This document shows, one piece after another, positions 8,977 through 46,322 of a stretch of 64,000 nucleotides of DNA. Numbering within the stretch: position 1 is the first letter of the stretch; every line of letters starts with the position of its first letter. The notes beneath the pieces were generated by a model. The model saw only the letters and a list, made by a program, of their open reading frames with translations, was not told the origin of the DNA and did not search any database. Source of the stretch: Novosphingobium sp. 9 (GTDB lineage Bacteria; Pseudomonadota; Alphaproteobacteria; Sphingomonadales; Sphingomonadaceae); NCBI RefSeq assembly GCF_025340265.1, contig NZ_CP022707.1, positions 930,501 through 994,500 of the forward strand, written 5' to 3'. The position numbers and the translations under genes are program-made.

Positions 8977-8987
8977 AGTGGGAAAAA

Positions 8988-11023: not shown

Positions 11024-11036
11024 TCGGGGTAGGGGC

Positions 11037-11084: not shown

Positions 11085-11110
11085 AGCCGATCAGTGTCAG
11101 CCGACCTGTG

Positions 11111-13173: not shown

Positions 13174-13182
13174 CGCTGATTT

Positions 13183-14157
13183 TTACGGGGCTACGGCATT
13201 GTCATCGGTAAAGCGCCCGGTCTTGCGGAACGGCGCCATCCAGCGGTTCAGGAAAAGCCCTATGGGGCGCGGGGTAACGCCCAGCGCATCGAGGCCCGGC
13301 AACGCACCCGTCAGCGTATTACCGGCCTTTAGCACCTTGTACTGATCGGCGCTGATCGGTGTGAAGGGCAGGGCGCGAAGCACTTTTGCCATGCTGTCCG
13401 AGAGTGGCCAGATATGGCGCTTGCGCTCCTGCGCAGCAGCAATGCGCTGGGTGATTTCAAGCATCGAGATCGCCTCAGGCCCGGCAACCTCGTAAATCTT
13501 GCCTTCATGGTGCTCGGTGTTGGCGAGTACGTTGACGATCGCCTTGGCCAAATCATCCACGTAAAGCGGCTGGAGCTTCGCTTCCGGCGCGAAGACCGGC
13601 ATGATCGGCGCGCTTGCCATGGCATCGGCCAGCATCATCACGAAATGGTCATCCGGCCCGAACAATACAGAGGGGCGAAGTATCGTGGCCTGCGGGTATG
13701 CTGTCAGTATCGCGCGCTCGCCTTCGGCCTTTGTCCGCAGATAGGGTACGTCTGACGTAGCGTCCGCTCCGAGCACTGAGACGTGAATGAACGCGCGAAC
13801 CCCTGCAGCTTTTGCTGCTGCCGCGATTCTGCCTGCTCCCTCGCCCTGTATTGCATCGAGCTTGCCGGTGAACGCACTGACCAGATTGACAACCATATCC
13901 GAACCCGTGAATCCTGCTGTCAGCATTTCCGGACGGGTGACATCCGTGCCGATGAACTGGACTTGCCCCAGGTTGGCAAGCGCTCGCACGGCATAGGCTT
14001 TGCCGGGACTGCGACTGGCGATGCGCAGGCGTGCGCCGTGCTCGAAAAGGTGCTGCGCGAGATGTCGGCCCACGAAACCGCTGCCACCGATGACAGTGAC
14101 GATTTTCCCGGAAAGTGGGTGAGGGGCGGAAATTGAGGCGGAAAGCTGTTGGGTCAC
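13183..14157 (-). CDS. NAD(P)H-binding protein, NDUFA9-like / atypical SDR
   Basis: Atypical short-chain dehydrogenase with the nucleotide-binding motif IGGSGFVGRHLAQ near the N-terminus. It continues VQFIGTDVTRPEML, NLVSAFTG, HVSVLGADATS and ILRPSVLFGPDDHF, the pattern of complex I NDUFA9-like and NmrA-like proteins. In alphaproteobacteria these are often annotated as complex I NDUFA9 subunit family, with an assumed role in assembly or cofactor binding; no complex I gene is nearby. I chose the GTG at 14157 (MTQQLSASISAPH) because AAGGAA lies 10 bases before it; the ATG at 14196 is the alternative. Convergent with the previous gene. Confidence 0.82.
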   Translation of the reverse strand: MTQQLSASISAPHPLSGKIVTVIGGSGFVGRHLAQHLFEHGARLRIASRSPGKAYAVRALANLGQVQFIGTDVTRPEMLTAGFTGSDMVVNLVSAFTGKLDAIQGEGAGRIAAAAKAAGVRAFIHVSVLGADATSDVPYLRTKAEGERAILTAYPQATILRPSVLFGPDDHFVMMLADAMASAPIMPVFAPEAKLQPLYVDDLAKAIVNVLANTEHHEGKIYEVAGPEAISMLEITQRIAAAQERKRHIWPLSDSMAKVLRALPFTPISADQYKVLKAGNTLTGALPGLDALGVTPRPIGLFLNRWMAPFRKTGRFTDDNAVAP

Positions 14158-14418: not shown

Positions 14419-14505
14419 GCCCAGATGGCGGAATTGGTAGACGCACCAGCTTCAGGTGCTGGCGCTCGCAAGGGCGTGGAGGTTCGAGTCCTCTTCTGGG
14501 CACCA
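14419..14505 (+). tRNA. tRNA-Leu (anticodon CAG)
   Basis: 87 bases including an encoded CCA. The acceptor arm GCCCAGA pairs with TCTGGGC. The anticodon stem CCAGC/GCTGG encloses the loop TTCAGGT (anticodon CAG), there is a long variable arm, and the T-loop is GGTTCGAGTCC. A TTGACA-like element is visible upstream at about 14343. The next gene is an integrase, so its 3' end is the probable insertion site of the island. Confidence 0.95.
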
Positions 14506-14540
14506 TTTGTTCTCCTGCGGACGTCCATAGACGTCCGCAG
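14485..14540 (+). other. Presumed left attachment site at tRNA-Leu 3' end, with hairpin
   Basis: P4-type integrases usually recombine at the 3' part of a tRNA gene, and the integrase starts 166 bases to the right. Immediately after the tRNA a perfect inverted repeat, CTGCGGACGT/ACGTCCGCAG around CCATAG (14515-14540), forms a hairpin that could be the tRNA terminator or an arm site. No perfect second copy of the tRNA end was found. Confidence 0.5.
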
Positions 14541-14670
14541 AGAGGCTGAAATCTGCCATTTTTTGTGTTATGATCGTCCAGTCAAATCCGGGCGAATTCG
14601 GCACCAATCGGGAACAATTCGGGTATATCCGAGGGTATCGATTTTCGTCCTTTCACGGGACGATACCTTC

Positions 14671-15912
14671 ATGGCCACCCTTTTCGCCACAACCGTCGCC
14701 AACGCCAAGCCACGCGAGCGCGACTATAAGCTATCGGACGGCGGAGGTCTCTACCTTCTTGTCCGCCCCAATGGCACGAAGCTGTGGCGCCTCAATTATC
14801 GCTATCTCGAAAAGCACCGCACGCTGGCGTTCGGAGCATGGCCCGAGGTCAGCCTCGCTGACGCCAGAGAGCGGCGTGACGAAGCCCGCCACCTGCTTGC
14901 TGCCGGAACCGACCCTTCCCACCAGCAGAAGGTCAATTCGGCGCGTGCACGGATCGAGGAGAACGACACCTTCCGGCTCGTGGCCGAGGAATGGGTCGCG
15001 AAGAACGAGCGCGAGGGTATGGCCGAGGTCACGCTCAGCAAACTTCGCTGGCTACTCGACAAAGCGTATCCCAAAATCGGCAATCGTCCGATCGCCAAAA
15101 TCACAGCACAGGAGGTCCTGGCCGTTCTGCGTGCCGTCGAGGCCACGGGACGGCACGAGAGCGCCCGGCGCATGCGCAGCGTGCTTAGCCGGGTCTTCCG
15201 TTATGCCATCGCCACGACGCGCGCCGAGCGTGATCCTGCGAGCGATCTGCGCGGCGCATTGACGGTGCCCAAAACCAAGCACCTCGCCGCGATCACCACC
15301 GAAGATCGGGCGGGAGACCTCATGCGCGCTATCGAGGGTTATTCAGGCCATGCCATCACGCTATTCGCCTTGAAGCTGTCAGCGCACCTCTTCGTTCGCC
15401 CCGGTGAGCTTCGGCAGGCCGAGTGGCCGGAGTTCGATTTCGATCGCTGCGTTTGGAACATTCCCGCTGAGAAGATGAAGATGCGTCGGCCGCATCGCGT
15501 CCCCCTTTCGCCTCAGGTGGTAAGGCTGTTCGAGGAGTTATGGGACCTGACAGGCCACGGCCGCTATTGCTTCCCTTCGTTCCGGTCTGGGCAGCGCCCG
15601 ATGTCCGAGAACACTGTCAATGCGGCGCTCCGGGCTCTTGGCTTTGGCCAAGAGGAGATGACGGCGCATGGGTTTCGGGCGATGGCAGCGACGCTGCTCA
15701 ATGAAGCCGGGCGATTCAATCCCGATGCGATTGAGCGCCAGTTGGCACACATGGAGAACAATGGGGTGCGCCGCGCGTATACCCGCGGCGAATACTGGAA
15801 TGAACGTGTGGCGTTGATGCAGTTTTGGTCTGACGAGTTGGAGCGTTTGCGTGATGGCGCCCGCGTCCTCAAACCCAACTTCGCGAGGCGAGCCCGTTCG
15901 GACGCGGCGTGA
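14671..15912 (+). CDS. Tyrosine recombinase, P4-type integrase (DUF4102)
   Basis: 413-residue site-specific integrase. The N-terminal arm-binding DUF4102 region has ANAKPRERDYKLSDGGGLYL and the LRLNY-like WRLNYRYLEK, and a SAM-like core-binding region follows. The catalytic residues are present in order: Arg in VRPGELRQAEW, Lys/His in RRPHRVPLS, HGFR in MTAHGFRAMAATLLNE, and the terminal nucleophile Tyr in RRAYTRGEYW. The ATG at 14671 begins MATLFATTVANAK; the frame is open further upstream through the tRNA. A frame of 98 codons overlapping its end is not a gene. It defines the left end of the island. Confidence 0.92.
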   Translation: MATLFATTVANAKPRERDYKLSDGGGLYLLVRPNGTKLWRLNYRYLEKHRTLAFGAWPEVSLADARERRDEARHLLAAGTDPSHQQKVNSARARIEENDTFRLVAEEWVAKNEREGMAEVTLSKLRWLLDKAYPKIGNRPIAKITAQEVLAVLRAVEATGRHESARRMRSVLSRVFRYAIATTRAERDPASDLRGALTVPKTKHLAAITTEDRAGDLMRAIEGYSGHAITLFALKLSAHLFVRPGELRQAEWPEFDFDRCVWNIPAEKMKMRRPHRVPLSPQVVRLFEELWDLTGHGRYCFPSFRSGQRPMSENTVNAALRALGFGQEEMTAHGFRAMAATLLNEAGRFNPDAIERQLAHMENNGVRRAYTRGEYWNERVALMQFWSDELERLRDGARVLKPNFARRARSDAA

Positions 15913-16245
15913 GTTTCTTTCGAAGGGTTTTCGAATCAGCGCGGCTGAATGCGCCCCTATGATTTTGGTTGGCGGTGCGCCCCCGATACTGCAACTTTGC
16001 GCCCATGTTGGCCGTTCAGAGATTGCCTATCCGATCCGCAAAGCTGCGCGTTCATTGCACGATGTGCGAATGACCTTTAAGGGCGGGGAGCGGACTTTCG
16101 CTGCATCTCGGTCGATCGGCAGAGATGCGCACGAAGCGACTGACTAACATGTGCGCAAACCGATATTCATTCTTTTGCTAAAGCATTTTCAGTGGATTCA
16201 AGATTGGGCGTCACTTAGCTACGGGTAAGTATCTCGAGGCTCTTG
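15913..16245. other. Region between integrase and methyltransferase
   Basis: 333 bases with no gene recognised. The right half (from about 16140) becomes A+T-rich and should carry the promoter of the methyltransferase-helicase-nuclease operon. I see no clear operator. Confidence 0.5.
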
Positions 16246-18942: not shown

Positions 18943-18945
18943 TAG

Positions 18946-20742
18946 ATGGTTCAGATGGTCAATGTCACCTATGGAACCTCCAAGGCGACAACGAACTCCC
19001 TTGGTCAGCGCCCGATGCAGGCCCGCACCTATGCTGCCCGTGCCGCGCAGTTCCTGCTGCTGAAAGCGCCCCCGGCGGCGGGCAAGAGTCGCGCGCTGAT
19101 GTTCGTGGCGCTCGACAAGCTGCGCCATCAGGGGCTGGACAAGACCATCGTCTGCGTGCCCGAAACCTCGATCGGCGGCTCGTTCCGCTCGACCGATCTG
19201 ACCAGCTATGGCTTCGAGGCGGATTGGGAGGTCGATGACCGCTGGAACCTTTGCCTGACCGGCGAGGATGCCGGCAAACAGAAGGTGAAAGCCTTCCAGA
19301 CCTTCATGGAGAGCGATGCCAGGGTGCTGGTCTGCACCCATGCCACCTTCCGCTTCGGTTTTGACGAGGTGATCAAGACCAAGGGAATCGAGGCCTTCGA
19401 CAGCTGCTTCATTGCTATCGACGAATTCCACCATGTGTCGGCTTCGGACAATAACAGGCTGGGGGTCATCCTGCGCAGCCTGATCAATCGCGCCGAGTGC
19501 CATGTGATGGCGATGACCGGCAGCTATTTCCGTGGCGATGCAGATCCGGTGCTTCGTCTCGAGGACGAGGATCGCTTCACCAAGATCACCTACAGCTATT
19601 ACGAGCAGCTGGAGGGCTACGCCTGGCTCAAGGCGCTCGGGATTAACTACGACTTCTACAAGGGCAATTACGTCAACGGGCTGCCGGGCGTGCTGAACCC
19701 CGATCAGAAAACGATCATCCACATCCCGCATCGTGGGTCGTCCGAGGCGTTCGATGACAAGTTCAACGAGGTGGGCAAGATCCTCGACCTGCTGGGCACA
19801 CATGAGGGGCGCGATCCCGAGACGGGGTTTGATCTGGTGCGCAAGCCCGATGGCGGACTGCTGAAAGTGGCGGACCTGGTGGATGACGGGACGGGCCGCG
19901 ATATCGTGAAGGCATCGCTGTCGCGTGAAATCAAAGGGCCAGATGGCAAACGCGATGATGTTGCGGACCGAGCCAAGGTCGACATCATCATTGCTCTCGG
20001 CATGGCTAAGGAGGGTTTCGACTGGGTCTGGTGTGAACATGCTCTGACGATCGGCTATCGGTCGTCTCTGACCGAGATCGTGCAGATCATCGGGCGCGCG
20101 ACCCGCGACGCGCCGGGCAAGCCCCGCGCGCTGTTCACGAACCTTGTTGCCGAACCCGGCGTCGAAACCGGTGTCGTGACCGATGCCGTAAACGACATGC
20201 TCAAGGCCATCTCCGGGTCGCTTCTGATGGAGCAGGTACTGGCCCCCAACTTCAAGTTCTACCGCCGCGAAGATGGCGACGTGCGGGCGCCCATAGGCAC
20301 CGATGATGAAGGCAATATTACAATCGGCATTAAGGGACTGGTCGAGCCGCCCACGAACCGTTCGCGCGAGATCTGCGAAAAGGACATGAACGATCTGATA
20401 GCGACTGCCTATCAGGAGATGGACCGGCGCGTACTGTCGCCTGAAACGGCCCCCGAGGTCGCGACCCAGATGGTGCTCACCGATATCATCGAGAAGCGGT
20501 ATGAGGCGCTGGATGCCGAGGAAGCGGAATCCGTCCGTCAGCATCTGGCGGCGCATATGAACGTCTTGACGCTGGCGCGGAAGGAAGCCGAACGCGGTTT
20601 TGCTGGGGGGCAGTCGCCCTTGAGCGGTTCGCCCCGAAGCCGAGCGGTGACGACGATGATGACGAGCCCGCCAGCGCACCGAATACGCTTCTGGAGATGG
20701 TCCGAAAATTCATCAACGTCCGAGACATCGATATCGAGTTGA
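18946..20742 (+). CDS. DEAD/DEAH-box helicase, frameshifted near the C-terminus
   Basis: Superfamily 2 helicase. The P-loop is APPAAGKSR (about residues 43-51), the Walker B is IAIDEFHHVS (DExH), and motif VI is QIIGRATRD (about residue 380). It starts 3 bases after the methyltransferase. The frame ends at 20742, but protein-like coding continues in another frame from about 20610 to 21020. A single extra G in the run GGGGGG at 20605-20610 would join them as one protein of about 690 residues with an acidic DDDDEPAS linker. So the last part of this frame (from about residue 554) is probably wrong. It may translocate DNA for the methyltransferase/nuclease. Confidence 0.85.
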   Translation: MVQMVNVTYGTSKATTNSLGQRPMQARTYAARAAQFLLLKAPPAAGKSRALMFVALDKLRHQGLDKTIVCVPETSIGGSFRSTDLTSYGFEADWEVDDRWNLCLTGEDAGKQKVKAFQTFMESDARVLVCTHATFRFGFDEVIKTKGIEAFDSCFIAIDEFHHVSASDNNRLGVILRSLINRAECHVMAMTGSYFRGDADPVLRLEDEDRFTKITYSYYEQLEGYAWLKALGINYDFYKGNYVNGLPGVLNPDQKTIIHIPHRGSSEAFDDKFNEVGKILDLLGTHEGRDPETGFDLVRKPDGGLLKVADLVDDGTGRDIVKASLSREIKGPDGKRDDVADRAKVDIIIALGMAKEGFDWVWCEHALTIGYRSSLTEIVQIIGRATRDAPGKPRALFTNLVAEPGVETGVVTDAVNDMLKAISGSLLMEQVLAPNFKFYRREDGDVRAPIGTDDEGNITIGIKGLVEPPTNRSREICEKDMNDLIATAYQEMDRRVLSPETAPEVATQMVLTDIIEKRYEALDAEEAESVRQHLAAHMNVLTLARKEAERGFAGGQSPLSGSPRSRAVTTMMTSPPAHRIRFWRWSENSSTSETSISS

Positions 20743-21020
20743 TCGACAGCGTAAACACCTTCCAGGAGCGCTTCGAGGTCGCATCGAAATCGCTGAACTC
20801 TGAGCTACTGTCACATGTGCAGTCAGCGATGGTGGCCTTGCGCGTAAACATGACCGGCGATGAGGCCCGAACGCTTTGGCCTCGCATCAAGGCATTCCGC
20901 GCTGCCGAAGGGCATGAGCCTAATGTCCATTCCGCCAATCCCCTTGAAAAGCGCATGGCAGAGGCACTCGCTTGGCTGAAGGCCGAAAAGGCCAAGCGCC
21001 TGCGTGAGGGGGCTCTGTGA
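20697..21020 (+). CDS. C-terminal part of the helicase (separate frame here)
   Basis: 107 residues beginning MVRKFINVRDIDIELIDSVN and ending in a Lys/Ala-rich tail. The frame is continuous with protein-like sequence upstream (ALERFAPKPSGDDDDE, read from about 20613), so it is most likely the end of the 18946 helicase, displaced by a missing G in a G-run. It may also be a small independent subunit started at the ATG 20697. Its stop overlaps the GIY-YIG start by one base (TGATG), which suggests translational coupling in the same operon. Confidence 0.6.
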   Translation: MVRKFINVRDIDIELIDSVNTFQERFEVASKSLNSELLSHVQSAMVALRVNMTGDEARTLWPRIKAFRAAEGHEPNVHSANPLEKRMAEALAWLKAEKAKRLREGAL

Positions 21021-22237
21021 TGTCACGCCCGAGCTTGGAAGATATTTTCATGGAAGACGACGAGTTCGGCCTGTTGGATGTCAAACCTCGCGCGGGGCGC
21101 GGTGGTCCTTCGCAGGATCGTGGCGTCGCAGCCTTGCTCGAAGTAACCGCCTTCTATGAGCGTCATTCGCGCCTCCCCGATCCAGACGCAATGGATCATG
21201 ACGAGATGCGCCTTGGAGCAATCTGGGATACCGTAAAGTTGGCTCCCGCCGATCAAATGCGGGCTGTGGATCGGTTGGGCCTGCTAAGCGCCTCCGCCGC
21301 CCCAAAGTCGCGTTCATGGCAAGATGAGCCTGTCGACGCTGATATTCCCAATAGCTTGGATGACATCTTTGCTGATGACGATCTTGATGTTGATGCGTCA
21401 CTGGTCAGCCTCAAGCACACCACACCGGCTGCAGAAAGGCACGTTCCTGATCATCGCGCGGACTTCGTGCTCTGTCAGGATTTCGAGCAATTCCGGGAGC
21501 GCTTTGAGACAGTTCAGCGGGGCTTGGAAGCAGGTGAGCGCCAAGCAAGCCCGGTACGGAAATGGTCGGTGATCGAGCCGATCGAAGGGGACTTCTTCAT
21601 AAGGAACGGTTTGCTCGCCATGATCGCCGAGAAGTCGGAAATGACCGCCCGTGGCGGCACGCGCGACCATCGGCTTCGCGTCATCTTTTCAAACGGTACA
21701 GAGAGCGACCCGCTCATGTCGTCATTCCGAAAATCCCTGAATGACGATAAGACAGCTCGCATGGTCCAGAAGGTTGGCCTCGGACCGCTTGATCCTGAAT
21801 GGGAAAACGATCAGCTCGAACTGTCGGGAACGATCTATGTTGCCCGCTCCCGATCTGAAAATCCCGAGATCAAAGGGCAGCGTATGATCTTGCATAAGAT
21901 CGGCGTCACCAGCCAGGATGTATCCCGCCGTGTTGCGGACGCCAGAAACGATCCAACGTTTCTTCTGGCGCCGGTGGAAATCGTCGCGACCTACAGCCTG
22001 CAAAATCTGTCCCGCAACAAAGTCGAGAACTTGCTGCATCGTTTCTTCGCAGCGGCTCGTCCGGCTAAACTATTCGTCACAGATCGGTTCGGGAAGAAGG
22101 TTCTTCCTAAGGAATGGTTCTATGTCCTGCCAGAACACGTCGGTCAGGCAGCTAAGCTGATCGAAGAGGGGACCTTGCATCGGTATCTTTATGATGTCGA
22201 AACTCAGAGGATTCTATTAAAAAACGAGATAACCTGA
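21020..22237 (+). CDS. GIY-YIG nuclease, T5orf172-like
   Basis: 405 residues. The C-terminal half carries the T5orf172-type GIY-YIG domain: SGTIYVARS (about residue 268), LHKIGVTSQDVSRRV with the KIG and Arg, and the Glu in NKVENLLHRFF (about residue 335). The N-terminal half has two acidic SL(E/D)DIF repeats (about residues 5-15 and 110-122) and a Gln/Lys-rich middle. This is the nuclease partner of the methyltransferase and helicase upstream. I chose the ATG at 21020; the GTG at 21017 is the alternative. Last gene of the operon, followed by about 190 bases without a gene. Confidence 0.85.
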   Translation: MSRPSLEDIFMEDDEFGLLDVKPRAGRGGPSQDRGVAALLEVTAFYERHSRLPDPDAMDHDEMRLGAIWDTVKLAPADQMRAVDRLGLLSASAAPKSRSWQDEPVDADIPNSLDDIFADDDLDVDASLVSLKHTTPAAERHVPDHRADFVLCQDFEQFRERFETVQRGLEAGERQASPVRKWSVIEPIEGDFFIRNGLLAMIAEKSEMTARGGTRDHRLRVIFSNGTESDPLMSSFRKSLNDDKTARMVQKVGLGPLDPEWENDQLELSGTIYVARSRSENPEIKGQRMILHKIGVTSQDVSRRVADARNDPTFLLAPVEIVATYSLQNLSRNKVENLLHRFFAAARPAKLFVTDRFGKKVLPKEWFYVLPEHVGQAAKLIEEGTLHRYLYDVETQRILLKNEIT

Positions 22238-30622: not shown

Positions 30623-30982
30623 GGCTCTGTCCTTCCTTCGCGACTCATGTGACGAGATGGATATAGAACATATAGCGAACATCATGAAGTGCGATGATGG
30701 GGTTCGGAAGGGTAAGGGCAGCGAAGGGGCAGGAAGAAAGGCTATGGCAAGTTAAAGGCCCCTGTCTCTCTGGTTCGACTAAGTGGCTGTCTGCACGTCT
30801 TTTTCTTGAGAGATAAGGGGTGCCGGAGCCCAGCCTAAGCCTCCGCTCATGAAGCAAATCGCAAAGAAACACTGGTTTTGCAGGCGCTTATCGGGAGGCA
30901 ACCGTGGAGGCCCTTGCCGCTGGGCATGCGCGTCCCCTGATTGCTGGCTCGGGCAGGCATCGACAGCATCAAGGAAGCGGCA
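30623..30982. other. Region upstream of the relaxase, possible oriT location
   Basis: 360 bases between divergent genes. In mobilizable elements the origin of transfer usually lies next to the relaxase gene. I do not see a definite nic-site consensus. A moderately A+T-rich stretch with direct GATG/GCGATG repeats is at about 30650-30710. Confidence 0.35.
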
Positions 30983-32935
30983 ATGGACGATGGGTTCGAC
31001 GTGTGGCTGGGCCATATCGGCAAGGAACGGCCCATGCGCCACGCCCTGCGCCGCGCGGTCAATCAGGCGGGCGGATCGCGCCTGTCGAAGGGGGGCAAGC
31101 CGCGCTTCACCGGCGCGCGGACCGGGCGCGGCGTCGCGGCCGCACAGATGCTCGGCGATGGTCCCCGTCACGGCGGTTCGAGAACGCGCCGGGTGGTCGT
31201 GAAGGCCCGCTTCGTGAAGCTTGCGGGCAAGGGCGCCAAGGCAGCTTCCGCCCACCTCAGCTACCTGCAGCGCGACGGGACCACCCGCGAGGGCGAGCGC
31301 GGCACGCTCTACGGCCCCGACAGCGACTGCGCCGACGGCAAGGCCTTCCTCGAGCGGGGCGCCGGGGACCGGCACCAGTTCCGCTTCATCGTCGCGCCCG
31401 AGGATGGCGAGCAGTATGCCGACCTGCGGCCAGTGACCCGTAGGCTCATGCAGCAGGTCGAAAAGGATCTGGGCACTTCGCTCGAATGGGTTGCGGTCGA
31501 TCACTTCAACACCGGCCACCCCCATACCCACATCGTCGTGCGCGGCGTGGATGATACAGGGGAGAACCTCGTCATCGCTCGCGACTACATCAGCCAGGGC
31601 ATGGCCGCACGGGCTTGCGAGATCGTCAGCCGCGATCTGGGCCCGCGCACCGAACGGGAAATCGCCGCAGCCAACGAGCGCGAAGTGACGCAGGAGCGCT
31701 TCACCCGGATCGACCGACGCCTGCTGGGCGATCTCGACGACAAGGGCCTTGCCTCGGCATGGCATGGTGACCCGGCCGAGCAGGCGTTGCGCGCGGCCCG
31801 CCTTGGCACGCTGCGCTCGATGGGGCTCGCCGAAGAGGAAGGCAAAGGGCGTGGACGCTATCGCCTCGATCCCGAACTGGAAACGAAGCTGCGCACCATG
31901 GGCAGGCGCGGCGACATCATCGCCACCATGCACGAACGCCTGCGCAGCCATCCCGAGGTGCTGCCCCAGGACTATGCGATCCATGAGCCTGCACAAGCTA
32001 AGCCCTTCGTCGGGCGCGTGCTCGACCGGGGTCTCTCCGACGAGCACGCCGATCGCCGTTACCTGATCGTCGAGGCAACCGACGGGCGTACCCTCTTCGT
32101 TGATCTGGGAGAGGACATCGCCGAGGGGGCAAGGCGCGGCGGACTGGTCAGAGTGTCCCCCTCCGACTTCGGACTGCGCAAGGCCGACCCGGTGATCGCC
32201 GAGGTCGCTGCGGCGAGCAACGGACGCTACAATGTCGACCTTCACCTTGCTCACGATCCGTATGCTTCGGAACGCTTCGCACAGGCCCATGTGCGCAGGC
32301 TCGAGGCGCTGCGGCGCGACGGGGCATCGATAGACCGCGAGCCCAACGGCACCTGGATCATCGGCCCGGATTATCTGGACGAGGCGCAGCGCTACGAGGA
32401 GCGCCAGGCCCAGCGTCGGCCGGTGATCGTCGACGTACTGGCCGACCGGCCGCTGGAGCAGCTCGTCCGCCACGACGGTCCCACATGGCTTGACCGCCAG
32501 TGCGTGGAAAGTCCCCGCGAGCGCCTGCACGGGCGCATGGGCGGCGAGGTCGCGGCAGCGCTGCGTCAGCGGAGGCAGTGGCTTGTAGAGCAGGGACTGG
32601 CCGAACAAGAGGGCAATGCCCTGCGCTACCGCAGCGATCTCATCGCCACGCTGCGCGGGCGCGAGTTGCGCCGCGTCGGCGCGCAGCTCTCCGGCGAACT
32701 GGGCTTGCGGTTCACGCCGATGGAGGGCGGCCGGGTCGAGGGCATCTATCGCAAGGCCGTGAACGTGGGCGGCGAGAAATATGCCGTGATCGAGAAATCT
32801 CGGGAGTTCACCCTGGTGCCCTGGCAGCCGGTGCTGGAGAAGCAGCTCGGCCGCAGTGTCGCGGGCACCATCGAGCGAAGCGGGAGCATCAACTGGACCT
32901 TTGGTCGCCAGCGCTCGGGGCCGCAGATCACCTGA
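30983..32935 (+). CDS. Relaxase/mobilization nuclease, DUF3363 type
   Basis: 650 residues. The catalytic histidine cluster is HFNTGHPHTHIVV (about residues 174-186), the HxH of VirD2/TraI-type relaxases. The N-terminal ARLRYLxRDG-like segment (AHLSYLQRDGTTR) is typical of the TraI/DUF3363 family. The C-terminal half (LDRGLSDEHADRRYLIVEA and later) is the DUF3363-type region. It nicks oriT and pilots DNA during conjugative mobilization. ATG 30983 (MDDGFDVWLGHIG) has AGGAAG upstream. No mating-pair or coupling protein genes lie in the window, so the element is mobilizable at best. Confidence 0.88.
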   Translation: MDDGFDVWLGHIGKERPMRHALRRAVNQAGGSRLSKGGKPRFTGARTGRGVAAAQMLGDGPRHGGSRTRRVVVKARFVKLAGKGAKAASAHLSYLQRDGTTREGERGTLYGPDSDCADGKAFLERGAGDRHQFRFIVAPEDGEQYADLRPVTRRLMQQVEKDLGTSLEWVAVDHFNTGHPHTHIVVRGVDDTGENLVIARDYISQGMAARACEIVSRDLGPRTEREIAAANEREVTQERFTRIDRRLLGDLDDKGLASAWHGDPAEQALRAARLGTLRSMGLAEEEGKGRGRYRLDPELETKLRTMGRRGDIIATMHERLRSHPEVLPQDYAIHEPAQAKPFVGRVLDRGLSDEHADRRYLIVEATDGRTLFVDLGEDIAEGARRGGLVRVSPSDFGLRKADPVIAEVAAASNGRYNVDLHLAHDPYASERFAQAHVRRLEALRRDGASIDREPNGTWIIGPDYLDEAQRYEERQAQRRPVIVDVLADRPLEQLVRHDGPTWLDRQCVESPRERLHGRMGGEVAAALRQRRQWLVEQGLAEQEGNALRYRSDLIATLRGRELRRVGAQLSGELGLRFTPMEGGRVEGIYRKAVNVGGEKYAVIEKSREFTLVPWQPVLEKQLGRSVAGTIERSGSINWTFGRQRSGPQIT

Positions 32936-33000
32936 TGATACTGAAAACACCCCTGGGGATACCGGAAAGGCTCTGTCGCCTATCGGAAGCCATGCCCATC

Positions 33001-36393: not shown

Positions 36394-37431
36394 TCACTCG
36401 CCCCCGTTCGCAAGCTCAGTTGCGATCAGCTGATACCGGGCCTTCAAATCACCCCCGGTGGCGAACGCCAATAAATCTTCTTTCGACAGTATGCCGTCGC
36501 GGAGAAACTTGGAGAGGTAGGTTTGGCAGAACTCAATGGAAAGCATGGACTGATCGATCCGACCAAGGATCTCCTCGCAGCTCTTGATATTGCGTTCAAT
36601 CAGCTTCCGGATGTCCGATAGCCGGTTAATCTCGCTGACCACCCTCCCGATCAGCAGGTCGAGAATGTTTGTGTCGAGATCGACCTTTCGGTCAGCGACT
36701 GCAAGGTCGCGCGCCACCAGATAAGCCAGACCAAGATTGGAAAAATCGCCGTGCAGCATATCGATCACGACGATGAACCCGTAGCCGGGGCGATACGCGA
36801 CATTCTCGACGCGCTTTAGCAACGACGGATTGATCGACGACCGATCGAGGACGATGATCGCTTGCGTACTTTTGCGATTGACCTGCGCTTCCAACAACTG
36901 ACTGAGAGCCGTGTCGATATTCTTACCATACCAGTCGCGCTCGTCAGGATTACCCAAGCTGATCGCTTTATCGAATTTGCACTCGATGACGATAGACTGA
37001 TCGTCCCCGCCGTCAATGGCGCACAGAATATCGCCAGTCTTGTTCTTCGGCAGAGTGCCCGTAATATTGCCAGTCGGCGAGATCGTGTCACCGATGCCCT
37101 TAGCAGTAAGAAAGTCGTCGAGATAGTTCGCCACCGCAATCTCGCCGGCAACGCCCTTCATCGAACTTTTCGAGAAAAGCTCCGTGCTCATTTCGAGCCG
37201 GATCTTCAACGATTCGAGTTCCGTGCCGAGTTCGTTCTCAGTCCGGGCCAGAAAGGCTGATAGGCGTTCCTGGCTTAGTGCAAGCACACCTATATGAAGC
37301 GCCTTTGCAAAAACGCCATCGCGCTGATCAACGGGAACCCGGTCGAAATAGTCGAAAATCAGGTCATTCTCCAGCTCGATACCAGAGACTTCGAGCCTGC
37401 GAAGGCCGTGATTGAGTTTAATAGAAGACAT
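36394..37431 (-). CDS. PD-(D/E)XK nuclease-like protein in the SIR2-HerA cluster
   Basis: 345 residues. A restriction-endonuclease-like core is visible at about residues 93-160: KGVAGEIAVANYLDDF (helix with Glu), then GDILCAIDGGDD (catalytic Asp) and IVIECKFDKA (E-x-K). The C-terminal half is helical, with a coiled region near RRLSDIRKLIERNIKSCEEI-like sequence. Such nucleases are common in HerA-associated defence. It lies 21 bases downstream of the KTSC gene and ends the four-gene operon. The function in this cluster is inferred. Start ATG 37431 (MSSIKLNHGL). Confidence 0.7.
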   Translation of the reverse strand: MSSIKLNHGLRRLEVSGIELENDLIFDYFDRVPVDQRDGVFAKALHIGVLALSQERLSAFLARTENELGTELESLKIRLEMSTELFSKSSMKGVAGEIAVANYLDDFLTAKGIGDTISPTGNITGTLPKNKTGDILCAIDGGDDQSIVIECKFDKAISLGNPDERDWYGKNIDTALSQLLEAQVNRKSTQAIIVLDRSSINPSLLKRVENVAYRPGYGFIVVIDMLHGDFSNLGLAYLVARDLAVADRKVDLDTNILDLLIGRVVSEINRLSDIRKLIERNIKSCEEILGRIDQSMLSIEFCQTYLSKFLRDGILSKEDLLAFATGGDLKARYQLIATELANGGE

Positions 37432-37668: not shown

Positions 37669-39572
37669 CTATCCTTGCGTTTCGTCGAGATTGACTAATG
37701 CGGATGTGAACGGGGTCTGTTGCCGCCACAACGCCACGACTTCCTCATAATTCGGATCAGCTTCCATCGGAATACCCCAGCCACCGGGAATCATCGAATC
37801 ATCGGGACTTGTTTCATCGCACACCACCGGGTCGGCACTGTCGGGGCGCTTGTCCTTCGGCGGAGGCTCGATCATCGTGCGCATCGGGATACCCACACCT
37901 TCGCCAAGGATGATCGCCTCGCCTGTCCGCAGGATGGGCAACATACTGGTAAGACCTTCAAGGTTCTCGGAAATCGCTCCGGTAATTTTTGACCGGTCGT
38001 TACCATTGGACAGACGTAACGCGAAAAAGGTGCCGCATTGCGACAGAATGGTCGAGTTGATCTCGGACGGGCGCTGGCTAACAATCATCGCGCCAATACC
38101 GTACTTTCGCCCTTCTTTGACGATGCGTTGCACCACAGTTGAAGCACGTCCGCCGATGTCACCATTGAGGTAGGTATGGGCCTCTTCGAGCACCAGCAGT
38201 AGCGGTCGCTCGCGGCCGCCCTGCGAAAGGTGGCGTGCCCAAAACAAGCAATCGTATATCAACCGAAGAAGAATACCGATCACGTCGTTGGTGATCGCGC
38301 TCGGGACGCCGGACAGGTCTAGAATGGTAACCGGCCGGTCCGATCCGATCCACCCTTTCATCAGGCACGCCAGCGTCTCCTCGGTCTTCCCCTCCGGATC
38401 GGGATCCCACCCGCCCGGACGCAGGAAGAAATTGTACCGGGGGATACGAAGCTTTGCTCCAAACGCCTCGAGCTGCGCACGTATGTTCAAGGTCTCAGGC
38501 AGATAGTTGATTTTCTCGTCGTCGCCCGCAACGCTTTTAACCTCGCGAAAGCGCGGAGGGAGGCCCTTTGATGCGTCACCCTTGATCGGCTGGCCATGCG
38601 CATCAAGCTTGTATGCCCAGTTTTCCTCGACCGGGGTTTTGCCCTTACCTGAGAAATAGGTGCCGAACTCCTGGCAGTACAGGTCGTACCACAGCTTCTT
38701 GATATCGAACGGAATTGGCGAATCCGCGTTTACAGCTTCGGGATCGATGTCGCTGTCGTCATCAGATTCGACTGTCGCGACCTTCGCTGCGATGATGCGC
38801 TCCATGATGAGATTTCTGGCCTTTGAATCCACTGGAAAGGACCCGAAGGTCAGGCTCATGAGTTCATCAAATTCCATCGCCCAGAATGGGAGACACAGCC
38901 GTTCCTGATCTGCCTTGCTGGCGTCAACGTTGACCTTGTAGACATGAGCACGATCCGCAAACGCGGCCTGATATTCACCGTGGATATCAAGAATCAGGAT
39001 ACGCGACGACGGATAGTTCTTCGCCGACGACAAGGATCGTACGACGCTCGCTACAGTAGTTGATTTTCCCGACCCGTCGTCCCCACCACCGCGCTATGCC
39101 GGGTGACTAGTTTGTTGATATCCACGAGCGCGTCGATGGACTGAGATCCCGCGATGTGGCCGACCTTCACAAGGTGATGTTGTTTGCCGCGCCGTCCGTA
39201 GATCCGCTCAAGATCACGTTGCGACACCAAATGGACATCGTCATCGATCGTCGGATATTGCGAGATTCCGCGCCGGAACTGGCCACCTGCCGAGCCCTCG
39301 CCGATAAGTTGAACCTTTAGCCAACGATATCCGGCACCTCCAGTGTCGGCCAGAGTCTCGGGGATGGCGCTCGCGCCGACTTGCGAAACGATGCCGAACA
39401 AATCTGCATAGCCGACCGGTATGCGTACGAAGCTGCCGATCTGGCCGATCCGGTACCCTTGGCCGTCGACGAAAGTCAGCCCCGAAAGCTGCGCGCCGGT
39501 CAACGCGACACTGACCGAAGTGCCATTCACGTCCTGAACGGTTCCGATAAGGGTAGGCGACGCACTATTCAT
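37669..39572 (-). CDS. HerA-like ATPase, split by a one-base frameshift in the P-loop
   Basis: Hexameric DNA-translocase/helicase of the FtsK-HerA superfamily. The N-terminal HAS-barrel lies in the frame from 39572 (MNSASPTLIG) to about 39060. It ends AVVGTTGRENQLL, where AVVGTTGSGKST is expected. The rest, from SSAKNYPSSRILILDIHGEY on, is in the next frame. One extra C in the run at 39073-39075 (plus strand) restores the Walker A. Walker B is LLLVLEEAHTYL, followed by IVKEGRKYGIGAMIVSQRPS (sensor). The repaired protein has about 634 residues. Its start overlaps the end of SIR2 by a few bases, giving a SIR2-HerA operon. Confidence 0.82.
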
Positions 39573-40814
39573 GTGTTGCGCTTTGCAGTTCGTCACGGCT
39601 CAGCGACCGCAGCAGCAAGCCCAGCTTTGCAAAATCGCCAAGATTGAGCTGGCAGGGAATTCTCCCCTCATTCTCGTCGTTCTCCGCGCCAAGAAGGTGG
39701 ATGACCTCCTGCGCCAGCCCACCTGGCTCCGATACGCCGACGCTGATCCAGCCCGCCCGTCGGCGGCCGATAATCGCCTCGTCCTGCGCGGCGATCGCGA
39801 GATTGGGGCCTGTTGCGCACACGCAATCGCCTTGGCATAGCCGGTGCCGCCCAACGGACCGAAGAGAAAGGCGTGCACCATCGCAGTTGGATTGTTCTTG
39901 AGGCTGCTCACAATGATATCGTTGATATGATCGTCACTGAACGAATATCCGGACATGAACAGGAGTGAAGATGGGCAGCTGATAAAATCCTTCAATCGGT
40001 CCATAAGAGCCAAATACGGCATCTTCCGGCTCTGGTCGAACTTCAGATGCGACGGATAAATCAGATGCTTCTGACCGGATTCGATCTTGTCTGAACGGAT
40101 GACCGAGCCAGCTGCAGCGTTCTGTGGGAGCTTGAGTTTCCAGTTGATCGACCCGTGTATCTTCCAGAGCCTTAGCCAGCGCGGTCCGATCAATTTCTCG
40201 TTCTCTACCGCGCCAAGGTCGAAGAACGCATTCCGTGATCCGATGAACCCGTCGAAATAGGGCGCACTCTCATCTTCGAGCGCTTCTTCCATCAACAAAT
40301 CATAGTTCGTGGTGAAAATGTGTACGGGCTTGTCGCGTGATAGTGATCGCGCCCATATCGCTAAATCGTGGTAAGGGCTTTCGTTGGTTGGAAGGTTTCG
40401 GTCGACAATGTCGGAAATTATCTCGCAAATCGACCGGTCCAACTGTTCAAGTTCCGCAGCTTTGAAACCGCGAACCTCGCCCTTGCCCACGACTTGCGAC
40501 ATCGAGCGGATCATCGACAACGCATCTTCGATATTGAAATGCGACTTTTCATCTTCGACAAACAATTTTGCCAAGCGATCGTATAGGCTCTCTTCCCCGC
40601 CTGATGGCGTTCTGAGCTTCGTGGCAATCATCTTGGTGAGGCCGGCAACATCCGGAATGATTGGTTCGTTGACGGTTTGGCCATTTTCGAGCTGGCGTTC
40701 GACACGGACGGCCAGCGGGCAACCTGCGCCAATGAAAAAGCCGACATGCTTCTTGTTTTGCGACAGCGACTGGCGAATATAATCCAGTTGCCGCGATGCG
40801 TCGTGATAAGTCAC
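39565..40814 (-). CDS. SIR2-like NAD-hydrolase domain protein (frameshifted near the 3' end)
   Basis: SIR2-type effector. The NAD-binding pocket is seen in HVGFFIGAGCPLAV (about residues 22-35). HIFTTNYDLLMEEA (about 165) carries the TTNYD motif, LWKIHGSINW (about 222) the catalytic His, and MSGYSFSDDHINDI (about 292) the terminal G-Y-S-F. Shared by antiphage SIR2 proteins, these imply NAD+ hydrolysis upon infection. After GTGYAKAIACA the frame becomes meaningless. One extra G near 39816 joins it to a frame reading GPNLAIAAQDEAIIGRR and ending ...SRDELQSATHE at 39565. The frame drawn otherwise stops at 39600. GTG start at 40814 with AGGGGG upstream. Confidence 0.85.
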
Positions 40815-41356: not shown

Positions 41357-44300
41357 ATGATTGAAGAAACACCGCGGCCTGCTCGCGACATTCACTTGCT
41401 TACAACCGAAGTTCTCCTTAGCGAACTCGTTGGAGGTCGATCAATCGCGCTTGAAGGCGGCGAGGAGTTGACGATGGTAGACGCCGACGCTCGGGCCGTT
41501 CTCGACTGGTATCGCCTGAACCAGAACAAATGGACCTCCCGGTTGAGCGCCGACGATGCCGAAGCGGTGGTTGGAAAGATTGCGATCGGAGCGCCCGAAC
41601 TTGCCGCTGCCGAGGAAGTTCGGGGTCATGCTACCGGCCGGCGGCGCTTGCGTCTCGTCAAGGTGGAAGCGCATCGGTTTGCTGGCCTCCACATGTTTGG
41701 CACATTGGCTCAGCCACCCGAGACGTTCGTCTTCGAGCCGGCGAAGGCGGTCACCCTGTTTGAGGGTTCCAACGGGTCGGGCAAGACTTCGATCGTCAAT
41801 TCGATCGTTTGGTGCCTCACGGGGGAACTGATCCGCTCCCAGCGCGTGCCGGCATCGGGTCAGGAGGAATTTACCTGTGAAGTGAGCGGCACAAATGGTG
41901 CGCTGAGCACGCACAAGATGTCGCCGGTCACGCCGATGCCAGGAAGGAATAGCGGCCTTGTTGCGTCGGGAAGACCGGTACCTGCAGACACCTGGGTGGA
42001 ACTGACCTTCGCTGACGAGGCGGGCAATGTCCTGCCCCCGGTCCGGCGAACTCAGTCTCGAAACGATCGCGGCAAGTTGCTGGAGGATGCGCCCGATCTC
42101 AGCGGCTTGGGCCTTGATCCAATCGCCTGGCGGATCGGCACGACGATGCCGGCAATCCTGCCTTATCTTGCGGTAGGATCCGCCTCGCAGCTTGGACAGG
42201 CTGCGGCCCGATTGACCGGCCTCGCGGACCTTTCTGATCTCGCCGACCACGCAGGGCGAATGGGTAAGCGCCTTAAGACCGATCTGATGAAATCGGCGGA
42301 CGAAGCGCTCGCGGCAATCATTCTACGCTTTGGCGATGCTGCGAGCGACCTCACGCGGGAACTTGGCGAGAGCCCCGACCTTGCTTTTGAGGGCGAAATC
42401 CCAACGCTGGACAAAGAGGATTGCCCTCAGCGCCTCGATGCGATCGAGAGGCATTTCACGCAGCGCAAGGCAGGAGCCCTAGGCGCTGCACAAGAAGTGC
42501 TGGGCCAGGATTTCGATCCTGAAGATCATGCATCGCGCGACAACCTCGAACGGTCGATCCAGCCAGCGATCATCCAGTTGAAGCAGTCGAGGCAATTGCC
42601 ATCGGTAAGCCGGCTCAGCGGTTTGACGCTTTCCGACAAGGATGCAGAGCGAAGCCAGGCACTTCTGGACAAGATCGCAAGCGAAGCTGCCTTGCTGGCA
42701 CGTCTTGCTGAAAGCCCGGACCGGGCACGCCGCGAGCAACTCTACGCGCGCGTCGCCTCGTGGGTTCACGAACACGGCCATGAGGACCAGACCAGATGCC
42801 CAGTATGCGTGGGCGACCTTTCCCTGGCGCGCGACCCTGTCACCGATCTGCCGGTGACACAGCATCTGGTATCTGCGGCGAATGACCGCGATGTCGTGTC
42901 TCGCACGATCACGCAATGGGTCGAGCACTGGACCGGTGAACTACTTAGAGAACTTCCCGCAGCAATTGCAGCCGAGGCGCGCCGCGACCTGCCGTCTACT
43001 CCCGCCGATCTGCTTGTGCACGGCATGACTGTGGAGCTTTTCGAAAGCGAAGGCTTCCGGGGTGTGCTGGGCGCGCTGCGCCCCGATGCCGAGGCTTTGG
43101 TGCATGAACAGGCGCAATTACTGCCGCCGTTTGCCGCAGTCGGCACTACGCCGCTGCCGCCTGCCATCTCCGTGACAGCCACCCAGCTCGAAACCATGGT
43201 TGGCAGGGTTAGGCGGGCGCTTGCCTTTGCGGCCTGGCGCGATCGCCACAAGGAGGTGATACTAGCCTTCATTGGGGCTGTGCGGCGGGGACATGAGGGC
43301 TCTGCGGACGCCCAACGCGCCATCGGCAAAAGGCTCGATACACTGCTGGGAATCGTCGAGAGCGTCGCGCCACTCAACCGGGCACTGGTTCTGGTAAAGC
43401 GGCTCGCCGACACGCGCGCAAGCTACGAGAACGCAGCGCGGCGCAAAAATCACTGTGGGCGCGCCGAAGCCGCATTGTTCAAGCTTACGCCGCTCGGCGG
43501 ACTAGCGCAGCAGCAAGTCGACGGTCTGCGCGAACGGTTGCACGTTAGATCCGAATTGTGGCGCAAGGCCGTCTACCGCAACGCCAACACCACCGCACCA
43601 GAACTTGCCGGCACTGCGATGAGCCGCACAGGCGTGCTTGAACTTACTGTAGGGCGCGAAGGCGTGACAGCACCGGCACAGCATATCTCGAATGCATCGG
43701 CACTGCGCGGCGCGTTGTTCGGCTTCTACCTTGCTTTTCGTGAACACGTGCTTGACCAGCGGGGCGGCATCGAGACGCTCGTACTCGATGACCCGCAGGA
43801 ACTACTCGACAACGAAAACCGGGAGCGCCTGGCCCGCGGGATTTCGAAGATTTCAGAGGCGGGAGCGCAAGTCATCGTCACCACGCACGATGGCAAGTTT
43901 GCGCGTTGCCTAGTCGCCGAGCACCGCGCGACCGACGGCATCGAGCACTACTCGGTCCATCCGGTAAACCCGGCGCGCCCACGGCTTGTGCCCTGTCCCG
44001 CTATCGAGGAAGTTGATCGTAAGCGTGACGCATTTAGGGAGGCCCCGAATGATCACGTTGCTGCCCGCGATTACGCAGCGCACGTGCGCGTATTCTTGGA
44101 AGCACGGCTTGGCGATCTCTTCGACGATGTCGCCCATCCTGCCCACGGCCAGCCAAGCCGTACACCGACACTGATGCAGCTGATGGACCGCCTCCGCAGA
44201 CTTTCCACCGCCGAAGGCGCAAGCGAGCTGTTCCGTCACCCAGTGGTGCTCCGTTTCCTAAACCATGCGGCACTAGCAGAAGGAGCCGAACCACGCCGCG

Positions 44301-45277
44301 TCCTCAACGAAGCCCATCACGGCAGCCAGACGATTTCCTATGCCGATGTCGAAGCAGTGCAGAGCGAGCTGCAAGGCTTGCGCACCGCGATCGAAAAGGT
44401 TCACGAGCAGTTCCGCCTTTATCGCTGGCGCGAACCCCTAGAGCCAGAGGCCGGTGCACCGGTTGTAATTTCGCTACCAGTCATGCGCAGGCCCGCTTTC
44501 AGCGTGCCGGTTTGTCCTGACATTGCTGCTTTTGCGGGTAGCGCACCTGCCGGCGGCTCTCAGGACGAAGCGGAAGAGATGCTTGGCGGCGAGTGGTTCG
44601 AGGGCAAGGCTTTATACTATGTCAGCGGTGAGACGCTTGGCTTTGCAGTACCGGCGGGCTCGATCGCAATTGTTGATTTTGAGCCATATGCTGGCCGTGA
44701 CAGCAACCTGGTAATTGCCCGGTACAGAGGGCAAGTTCTTGCCCGTCGACTGGTGAAGCCAAGCCGGTCAATTGGGGTTTCGCTTTCTGCACAGATGCCC
44801 GATCCCCGCACGTCGCGCCCGGCCCTGACTTTCGACAGTGGGGTTCGGCTGTATCGCATTGTCGGTGCTCTATTCACTCAAGCTCAACCTCCTGACGGAG
44901 GCGGGGAAGCACAGCCCATCGAGGTTTGCCCGGAGCTCGAGAACGTTGCGGTCGCCTACCGGGTGAAGGAAGACAGCGCAATCCCCCTTGCCCTGCCCGG
45001 TCAGATCATCTTGGGCGGCGCAGAGCTCACACCAGTTGATCTCGATCATTGGGAAGACAGGCTCGTGGCCGTCACGCTCGACGATGGAACCAGTATCTTC
45101 AAACGCGTGGGTCGGCGACTTCCCGGTCGATTCAGTCACCTGCGCCTGTTCGAGACCATCGGCGGCCTCGGGTCCTCGATGATCGTTGCGACGGAGGCCG
45201 TCGAGAGCGATCAAGGTGATTCGGGCGTTCCGCTCATGATAAGCGCACGGCGTGTCATCGGGGTCCTTTACAGCTGA
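41357..45277 (+). CDS. Giant Rad50-like ATPase with zinc-hook motif and S24/LexA-like C-terminal region
   Basis: 1306 residues. Walker A is GSNGSGKTS (about residue 137), preceded by a Rad50-type strand (FEPAKAVTLFEG). Walker B is LVLDDPQE (about 808), with the ABC-type D-D and a D-loop-like helix after it. The central part carries CPVC (about residue 481) in TRCPVCVGDLSL, resembling a Rad50/RloC zinc hook. After the ATPase, a helical region (about 880-1075) is followed by what I read as one or two LexA/UmuD (S24)-like modules. The first (YYVSGETLGFAVPAGSIAI, about 1086-1104) has Thr at the usual Ser position and RRL for the K-R. The second is around IPLALPGQIIL and SIFKRVGRR. Such a fusion is unusual. 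ATG 41357 has GGGGGG upstream. Confidence 0.78.
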   Translation: MIEETPRPARDIHLLTTEVLLSELVGGRSIALEGGEELTMVDADARAVLDWYRLNQNKWTSRLSADDAEAVVGKIAIGAPELAAAEEVRGHATGRRRLRLVKVEAHRFAGLHMFGTLAQPPETFVFEPAKAVTLFEGSNGSGKTSIVNSIVWCLTGELIRSQRVPASGQEEFTCEVSGTNGALSTHKMSPVTPMPGRNSGLVASGRPVPADTWVELTFADEAGNVLPPVRRTQSRNDRGKLLEDAPDLSGLGLDPIAWRIGTTMPAILPYLAVGSASQLGQAAARLTGLADLSDLADHAGRMGKRLKTDLMKSADEALAAIILRFGDAASDLTRELGESPDLAFEGEIPTLDKEDCPQRLDAIERHFTQRKAGALGAAQEVLGQDFDPEDHASRDNLERSIQPAIIQLKQSRQLPSVSRLSGLTLSDKDAERSQALLDKIASEAALLARLAESPDRARREQLYARVASWVHEHGHEDQTRCPVCVGDLSLARDPVTDLPVTQHLVSAANDRDVVSRTITQWVEHWTGELLRELPAAIAAEARRDLPSTPADLLVHGMTVELFESEGFRGVLGALRPDAEALVHEQAQLLPPFAAVGTTPLPPAISVTATQLETMVGRVRRALAFAAWRDRHKEVILAFIGAVRRGHEGSADAQRAIGKRLDTLLGIVESVAPLNRALVLVKRLADTRASYENAARRKNHCGRAEAALFKLTPLGGLAQQQVDGLRERLHVRSELWRKAVYRNANTTAPELAGTAMSRTGVLELTVGREGVTAPAQHISNASALRGALFGFYLAFREHVLDQRGGIETLVLDDPQELLDNENRERLARGISKISEAGAQVIVTTHDGKFARCLVAEHRATDGIEHYSVHPVNPARPRLVPCPAIEEVDRKRDAFREAPNDHVAARDYAAHVRVFLEARLGDLFDDVAHPAHGQPSRTPTLMQLMDRLRRLSTAEGASELFRHPVVLRFLNHAALAEGAEPRRVLNEAHHGSQTISYADVEAVQSELQGLRTAIEKVHEQFRLYRWREPLEPEAGAPVVISLPVMRRPAFSVPVCPDIAAFAGSAPAGGSQDEAEEMLGGEWFEGKALYYVSGETLGFAVPAGSIAIVDFEPYAGRDSNLVIARYRGQVLARRLVKPSRSIGVSLSAQMPDPRTSRPALTFDSGVRLYRIVGALFTQAQPPDGGGEAQPIEVCPELENVAVAYRVKEDSAIPLALPGQIILGGAELTPVDLDHWEDRLVAVTLDDGTSIFKRVGRRLPGRFSHLRLFETIGGLGSSMIVATEAVESDQGDSGVPLMISARRVIGVLYS

Positions 45278-45333
45278 TATCAGTTCAAGAAGCAGTGCGG
45301 CAATGCCGTGAGGCTACCACCGAAAAAGAAGGT

Positions 45334-46322
45334 ATGACGTCCATGAATAAAGCTGTCCGCGTGCTCATCCCCGACGATTGCCATTCCCAGAAACCTGGGG
45401 CCTTGCCCTCAGCTATGCTCAGAAAATCGCCGAAGATCAGGGGACGGAAAGGATCGTGCTATTCACCCCGTCCAAACAGCAACTCAAGACTACCACGCTT
45501 GCTCAAACCCTGGGCCCGGTCGTTGCCAAGTCGTTGACCGACAATCGGCGAACGAGCCTGAACGGGCGTTTCACGCTGGAGAACAAGACACTGCAGACCG
45601 GTCGCTTTGCGCTGCCCCAATCCGTCGTCATCGCGTGTTACGCCAACGAGAAAATGATGGAACATCTCGACGGTCTCAAAGGCCTCGTCGGAGTTGTCGC
45701 GGTTCCGTATATTCGAGATGCAGCGGACGTCTGGCAGAAACGCTGGAACGCGCATGTCCATGGGGCCGCCCGGCAAGCGCAGCCTGCCCCTCTGATCGAA
45801 GATCGAGTGGTCGCGGCAGCGCTTACCTCGCTCACGATTCTGGTGAACGTCTCGCACGGCATCCTGCATCCGCGCGACAAGCAATCCGCAGACATGATCT
45901 TGCGTATCTTACGCGCAAAAGGCCATGAGCTCGATCCCGTCTCGATTAAGTCCTGGGCAATCCGCAACGGCTGGGACCCAAAGGGGGGCGAAGATCTTGC
46001 AAAGCTTGCTGCGCGTATCGCCGGCCTCAAGGGAACGCCCAGCCTTACCAAATTCAACGACCCGGCAGCGCTCTATGCGCGCTGGCAGTCCAGGCCGCCG
46101 AACAGCCCTGAGTCATCCGCGCCATTTCAACTTGTGCTCCGTCCGCGACGGCGGGCAGGTGCACCATTGTGCATCCTGATATTGGAGGAACATGCTGGCA
46201 GACGCGCCCCTGGGCAAGTGGCCTATTCCGGAAACAAGGCGTTGCTCAAATTTCTCTACCGCACTGCGCATCGAGCGTCGGCTTACCTTGGCCGGCGGCT
46301 CCAAAGGCGACTGTCGCCATAG
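45334..46322 (+). CDS. Partner of the giant ATPase, unknown function (frameshifted at the start)
   Basis: Probably one gene: the start at 45334 (MTSMNKAVRVLIPDDC) is in one frame, and WGLALSYAQKIAEDQGTERI continues in another. One C inserted in the CC at 45381-45382 fuses them into a protein beginning with a short strand and a Rossmann-like pattern (VRVLIPDD, RIVLFTPSK, VVIACYANEK, VVAVPYIRDAADVWQKRW). This resembles a helicase-like or nucleotide-binding N-terminal domain, but I see no Walker motif. The last ~60 residues look out of frame, so the end is uncertain. It follows the ATPase by 56 bases and is the natural second gene of the system. Confidence 0.5.

Follow-up and report, generated by a model that had tools for sequence, protein, structure and literature searches.

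We identified, in the 64,000-nucleotide stretch of the Novosphingobium sp. 9 genome analysed here (the window), a gene encoding a 1306-aa protein (41357..45274, + strand, stop codon to 45277) in which an ABC ATPase with a zinc-hook motif is followed by a HEPN-like domain and two predicted S24 (LexA/UmuD-like) units. Our preferred reading, to which we assign a probability of roughly 0.62, is that this gene encodes a single-gene, RloC-like, DNA-gated toxic RNase for phage defence or suicide, with the tandem S24 part serving as a sensor or latch. The new element is the pair of S24 domains placed after HEPN on the RloC plan: a widespread family joins the RloC layout to an SOS-sensing fold, which raises the question of whether the RecA filament talks to a translation-killing RNase. 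The gene would add a single-gene defence candidate of ~3.9 kb and tie abortive infection to the S24 switch. If RecA-triggered self-cleavage of the tail does free the nuclease, a more speculative possibility taken up below, DNA-damage sensing and translation shut-off would be united in one protein without transcription, and this would be, to our knowledge, the first case of the LexA/CI/UmuD self-cleavage switch directly controlling a toxic nuclease, not a repressor or a polymerase subunit. Among the titles and abstracts listed from a largely open-access literature, none describes an ABC-hook-HEPN-S24-S24 fusion, though one may have been mentioned elsewhere; the terms S24, LexA and RloC do not occur in the excerpts of PMC12839542 and PMC10853773.

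Conservation and spread of the protein

The reading frame is uninterrupted, and within its own genome the protein matches only itself. A database search returned 311 proteins at an E-value cutoff of 0.001 (8000 candidates scored); the best 120 of these 311 relatives are 1172-1330 aa long with a query coverage of 90-100%, and all organism-named ones among them are alphaproteobacterial. An alignment search with the same protein gave 471 matches, and single copies outside the alphaproteobacteria were found in Achromobacter and Pseudomonas veronii. In an even sample of the class, 8 of 385 genomes contain a match, which in three genomes, one being that of the window, covers nearly the full length, and the gene is present in 5 of 61 related genomes. 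Since there are many full-length relatives, the domain order is an old and stable arrangement, neither a chance fusion nor an assembly error.

Searching Pfam with the protein yielded AAA_23, SMC_N slightly below its cut-off and a sub-threshold hint of S24; NCBIfam gave likewise generic ATPase matches, and PADLOC partial matches only. The N-terminal extension (residues 1-118; 41357..41710, +) matches no Pfam family, nor did it match S24 or the RloC HEPN in profile comparisons. We assessed conservation in an alignment of 128 rows (the query, 120 listed matches and seven loci), which are not independent, as they include some duplicates and the database record of the query (P0001). Residues C481, C484, D811-D812-P813-Q814, R911, E915, N984, H987, H988, S1207, A1208, P1210, K1249 and R1250 are identical in all 128 rows; C481, C484, R911, E915, H988, S1207, P1210, K1249 and R1250 are also invariant in 18 rows picked for diversity (down to 22% identity), as are their counterparts in a 55-row alignment numbered on P0112, where R911, E915 and H988 correspond to R777, E781 and H853.

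The ATPase head, the zinc hook and the HEPN-like domain

The Walker A motif GSNGSGKT (residues 137-144; 41765..41788, +) retains G137, N139, G140, G142 and K143 in 128/128 rows, the Walker B and D-loop region LVLDDPQ (residues 808-814; 43778..43798, +) is equally constant at its DDPQ positions, and so are both cysteines of the zinc-hook motif CPVC (residues 481-484; 42797..42808, +). These results bear out three claims of a preliminary description of this DNA, namely, that the 1306-residue protein is real (its frame is intact and its many full-length relatives are mostly alphaproteobacterial), that it contains an ABC/SMC-type ATPase with Walker A and B, and that it carries a zinc-hook-like motif. 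Placed by its position before Walker B, SNASALR (residues 778-784; 43688..43708, +) is a probable divergent ABC signature, with N779 in 127/128 rows and S781, L783 and R784 in all; a pattern for the LSxGD/E-like signature was found in 12 of 14 RloC-like and 5 of 5 SbcC-like proteins. As for the hook, a profile of residues 417-517 matched the Rad50 hook chain 6zff weakly (E = 0.079), and one relative (L101) scored 21.4 bits against Rad50_zn_hook, below the cut-off of 24.3.

Residues 883-1023 (44003..44425, +), overlooked in the preliminary description, lie between the ATPase and the S24 tail, are predicted to adopt a HEPN helical fold, and resemble a HEPN ribonuclease in which the set R-x3-E...N-x2-HH is invariant. 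The putative RNase triad of R911, E915 and H987/H988, together with N984 (44087..44320, +), follows the ATPase C-lobe in 128/128 rows and aligns with the RloC triad, 71 residues separating its Glu and His. With respect to the HEPN superfamily motif Rx4-6H (given in the excerpts of PMC3710099), six residues lie between R980 (123/128 rows) and H987 and five between R981 (110/128 rows) and H987, neither Arg being invariant. When compared alone with RloC in two profile comparisons, the HEPN-like domain scored 0.3% and 5.6%, while a profile of the C-terminal ATPase lobe plus HEPN matched RloC/AAA_13 proteins at 95.7%, mostly from the lobe.

RloC, a wobble-nucleotide-excising anticodon nuclease of the AAA_13/ABC-HEPN type, shares with the window protein an ABC head split by a CXXC-hook insert, a DDP Walker B, and a HEPN domain after the C-lobe with an R-x3-E then H triad, often with Ser before the His. 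The earlier contrast, that RloC has the hook and the HEPN nuclease but not S24, therefore falls in so far as the window protein has a hook and a HEPN-like domain too. On the other hand, the latter differs from RloC in its extra N-terminal 118 residues, its tandem S24 tail and its divergent signature region. According to the excerpts of PMC2610378, RloC proteins are 658-897 aa long with a Glu-His spacing of 36-52 residues, whereas the window protein has 1306 aa and a spacing of 71; by pattern, we found spacings of 30-50 in 9 of 14 RloC-like proteins and of 75-76 in three (probably the wrong site), two being unmatched. At E ≤ 0.001 nothing in the window's genome matches Pfam AAA_13 (PF13166), nor does the protein itself at E ≤ 1, and the relative L101 scores 11.0 bits against a cut-off of 36. 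Because length, triad spacing and AAA_13 match all fail, we did not file the protein as RloC: as judged from sequence, it is RloC-like with an added S24 pair, yet outside RloC sensu stricto. In PrrC, too, an anticodon nuclease with an R-x3-E...H triad comes after the ABC ATPase (excerpts of PMC2610378), but PrrC is without a hook and lies within a type I R-M locus, and the S24 tail is confined to the window protein.

The tandem S24 tail and a proposed mechanism

The C-terminal tail is predicted to form two S24 (LexA/CI/UmuD) folds, the first spanning residues ~1049-1175 (44501..44881, +) and the second residues ~1185-1306 (44909..45274, +). This agrees with the preliminary description, which saw one or two such folds here; the contrary outcome, a tail devoid of an S24 fold, did not arise. 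Its statement that the catalytic Ser and Lys are replaced holds for the first unit, which has Thr or Ser and Arg at these positions (T1093 and R1130 in the window) and lacks the Lys in 128/128 rows, but not for the second, where S1207 (44975-44977) and K1249 (45101-45103) are kept in 128/128 rows and are invariant down to 22% identity. In the Azospirillum copy (L099), the Arg of the first unit is lost and the dyad of the second is kept. Against S24 profiles the first unit scored 77% with 4 sequences and 39% with 29, and the second 0.4% and 0.2%; in one such weak comparison of the second unit, S1207 and K1249 nonetheless pair with the S24 Ser and Lys. Comparing the profiles of the two units with each other gave 2.4%, and an 88% score for the same pair was discarded as void, as it rests on 12 shared residues. 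Several of the structures matched by the tail are RecA complexes.

Compared with LexA, lambda CI and UmuD, the fold is present twice, and the Ser and Lys of the second copy are 42 positions apart (43 in lambda CI), but the first copy is without the Lys, and within residues 1160-1206 no conserved Ala-Gly or Cys-Gly cleavage site was found, an Ala-Gly at 1180-1181 occurring in at most 29 of 128 rows. Moreover, in LexA, lambda CI and UmuD the S24 fold goes with a DNA-binding domain or a polymerase partner, whereas here it is fused to ABC-HEPN. Among 24 upstream regions, the SOS box GTTC-N7-GTTC or its reverse was found in none, CTG-N10-CAG in one (2.5 expected), and GTTC-GAAC inverted pairs in three (1.3 expected). 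The invariance of the second dyad favours catalysis, while the lack of a conserved cleavage site before S1207 and of SOS boxes calls for caution, and on these sequence grounds the odds that the tail is proteolytically competent appear evenly balanced.

Since head, hook and HEPN are homologous to RloC, the most economical reading is the logic of an ATP- and DNA-gated RNase, and an RNase-based role in defence is probable. By analogy with RloC, the Rad50-like ABC ATPase with its putative zinc-hook coiled coil would likely be a sensor of DNA ends or DNA structure that restrains the C-terminal HEPN ribonuclease. DNA damage or phage DNA processing would alter the state of the ATPase and release the HEPN domain, which would then cut cellular RNA, most likely the tRNA anticodon loop, so that translation stops; the protein may thereby shut down the infected or damaged cell. 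Known S24 members answer to RecA filaments, and the S24 tandem would most likely be a latch or second sensor that responds to a DNA-damage signal much as LexA, CI and UmuD respond to these filaments; were the second unit to cleave, nuclease release would become irreversible. In the full sequence of events, RecA filaments arising upon DNA damage or phage replication would bind the tail, the intact second unit would sever the polypeptide, and the ABC-HEPN portion thus set free would degrade tRNA; we regard this tentative extension as unlikely. In the natural host of RloC, double-strand breaks activate the enzyme, and its authors describe activation through a 'putative' break sensor and a coupled ATPase (excerpts of PMC3874168).

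Alternatively, the S24 pair could be a structural scaffold, or a platform on which RecA, a clamp or a phage protein docks, with no proteolysis and the ATPase alone gating the RNase as in RloC. The first unit without Lys in every row and the want of a conserved Ala-Gly or Cys-Gly site before S1207 speak for such a role, as does the functioning of RloC without any S24 (excerpts of PMC2610378 and PMC3874168), but an S1207-K1249 pair invariant to 22% identity would be needless in a pure scaffold, and the Azospirillum copy has dropped the Arg of the first unit while retaining this very dyad. We consider this reading rather unlikely.

Genomic context and mobility

The window contains, in order, a tRNA-Leu gene (14419-14505) with a tyrosine integrase ORF, forming the probable left island end (14419..15912, +), an MmeI-like R-M protein, a helicase, a SIR2-HerA defence system (37669..40814, -) back to back with the ABC-HEPN-S24 gene, and, after this gene, DDE_3 (IS630-like) and rve (IS3-like) transposase genes and then ribonucleotide reductase. 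The mobile, defence-rich setting of the preliminary description is supported, and with it the presence there of an S24 module on a Rad50-like ATPase. The left part of the island (14419-22237) encodes an MmeI-like type IIL R-M protein, a DEAD helicase and a T5orf172 protein, which we take to be GIY-YIG-like; two ORFs near the defence genes, of 723 aa (30779-32950, -) and 345 aa (36394-37431, -), have no significant Pfam or PADLOC match, the latter giving a PDDEXK_15 hint at E = 0.17. HerA is broken into two frames (39051-39596 and 37669-39033, -), and a genuine pseudogene or faulty assembly may account for this; in another locus (L004) an intact SIR2-HerA pair adjoins a relative of our gene. 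A search for att sites found no exact repeat of at least 15 bases of 14419-14620 elsewhere in the window. Counting best hits and leaving out weak ones such as that of G040, both island-flank genes lie on one contig, 48-154 kb apart, in four related genomes (G005, G039, G041 and G042), and on different contigs in the others.

Matches to the protein occur in 25 of 72,556 plasmid records, 17 of them over at least 80% of the query, and in none of 50,697 phage records. We scanned 20 chosen neighbours in 12 loci with PADLOC at an E-value cutoff of 1e-10, the loci being non-random and without a background rate, and obtained strong matches in six: SIR2-HerA (L004), PsyrTA (L027), Shango SngB/C (L029), HEC-04/PtuA-like (L007), DRT UG17 (L042) and Shedu (L040). 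A weak PDC-S05 match was seen in L099, and the chosen neighbours in L002, L005, L030, L032 and L100 had none. The Paracoccus sediminis and Kaistia adipata records (L002 and L006) have 14 kb in common at 99.86% identity (1-14076), which reflects either shared DNA or contamination of one assembly; upstream in both are four genes of 668, 423, 391 and 226 aa, unrecognised by PADLOC. Pannonibacter, compared with flanks of 10 kb before the gene and 0.3 kb after it, shares only the gene and ~90 bases before it (4005 bp, 97.6%). Because Paracoccus and Kaistia share 14 kb and Pannonibacter just the gene and these bases, the gene seems, from these comparisons, to move as a single unit; it appears to travel without companions, both on plasmids and in the vicinity of defence systems of various kinds.

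We find it improbable that the protein, instead of being a defence toxin, is a Rad50/SbcC-like protein for DNA repair or plasmid maintenance. Its head halves are Rad50-like, it has a zinc hook, and its N-lobe is slightly nearer to SbcC than to RloC (score 74 vs 56); furthermore, 5 of 25 loci (L004, L029, L041, L097 and L103) include an SbcD-like gene, its position varying and the flanks compared differing in length, and Croceicoccus and Bradyrhizobium quebecense have an SbcD-SbcC-like pair directly adjacent. Each flanking SbcD-like gene adjoins its own separate SbcC-like or ATPase gene, however, an SbcC-like gene accompanying it in four of the five loci by blast and in L103 by position and annotation. 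The C-lobe profile matches RloC and not SbcC, HEPN (with its invariant triad) and S24 domains are added, and the distribution is patchy (3 of 385 class genomes near full length, as counted above) with varied defence neighbours. Assignment to the Rad50/SbcC family was accordingly rejected, as a Mre11/SbcD partner is not the rule and the C-lobe is unlike SbcC. An AbiEii-family gene was observed in addition to the SbcD-SbcC-like pair in L097 and, by annotation, in L103.

A Lamassu-type (LmuB) SMC component acting with a separate effector is very improbable: LmuB, likewise an SMC-like defence ATPase, is the best, albeit partial, PADLOC model (E 1.1e-16, best stretch 351-857), but the window system is a single gene with the effector-like domain in the same chain, no neighbour within ~6.5 kb recurs in more than two of 15 ORF-mapped loci, and annotated plasmid loci, read by eye, show no recurring neighbour apart from SbcCD pairs. 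There is accordingly no steady LmuA or LmuC, and the Lamassu family was rejected for want of an LmuA effector steadily encoded beside the gene.

The downstream DUF1889-family gene

About 100 bases past the ATPase gene and in the same direction lies a frame-broken gene (45343..46322, +) of the DUF1889 family (PF08986; ~250 aa, 112 matches), which we judge to lie outside the system and to be most likely a bystander; it begins in a different frame and extends past the end of the family, and, as with the split HerA, a genuine pseudogene or faulty assembly may be the cause. The preliminary description took it for a partner, a view that the comparisons contradict. Relatives of it were found beside the ATPase in none of 15 loci (L002-L016, with flanks of varying length and L008 without downstream sequence), nor when longer flanks were taken for the final six among them (L027-L032). 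By blast of the L001-L025 ORFs, it appears only in the window's own loci (L001 and L022) and in L023, which was fetched using this gene as the query. Among the 61 related genomes the family was matched in two, the window's own and, weakly, one without the ATPase, and it is absent from all four same-genus genomes carrying the ATPase. Five plasmid contexts of the family contain no annotated ABC-HEPN-S24-type ATPase. Some 979-kb Bradyrhizobium plasmids carry relatives of both genes, ~290 kb apart on the one measured (H4, H28), with the ATPase copies in pieces. Orthologues of the ATPase thus lack the supposed partner, but they are not found to lie outside islands, because many copies are plasmid-borne or have defence genes nearby.

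A two-gene system in which the DUF1889-family gene would supply an antitoxin, regulator or effector, suggested by its close codirectional position and by the Bradyrhizobium plasmids, is hardly credible given these locus and genome comparisons, the broken frame and the other contexts of its relatives, a haloarchaeal plasmid included, and was rejected. The plasmids that carry family members (L035-L039) come from haloarchaea as well as from alpha-, beta- and gammaproteobacteria and show no evident common neighbour, and in Thalassobaculum a 1266-aa hypothetical protein, encoded in a stretch (also L026) for which blast gave no similarity to the window's ATPase, is divergent from the DUF1889-family gene (L035, 1644-5444, -).
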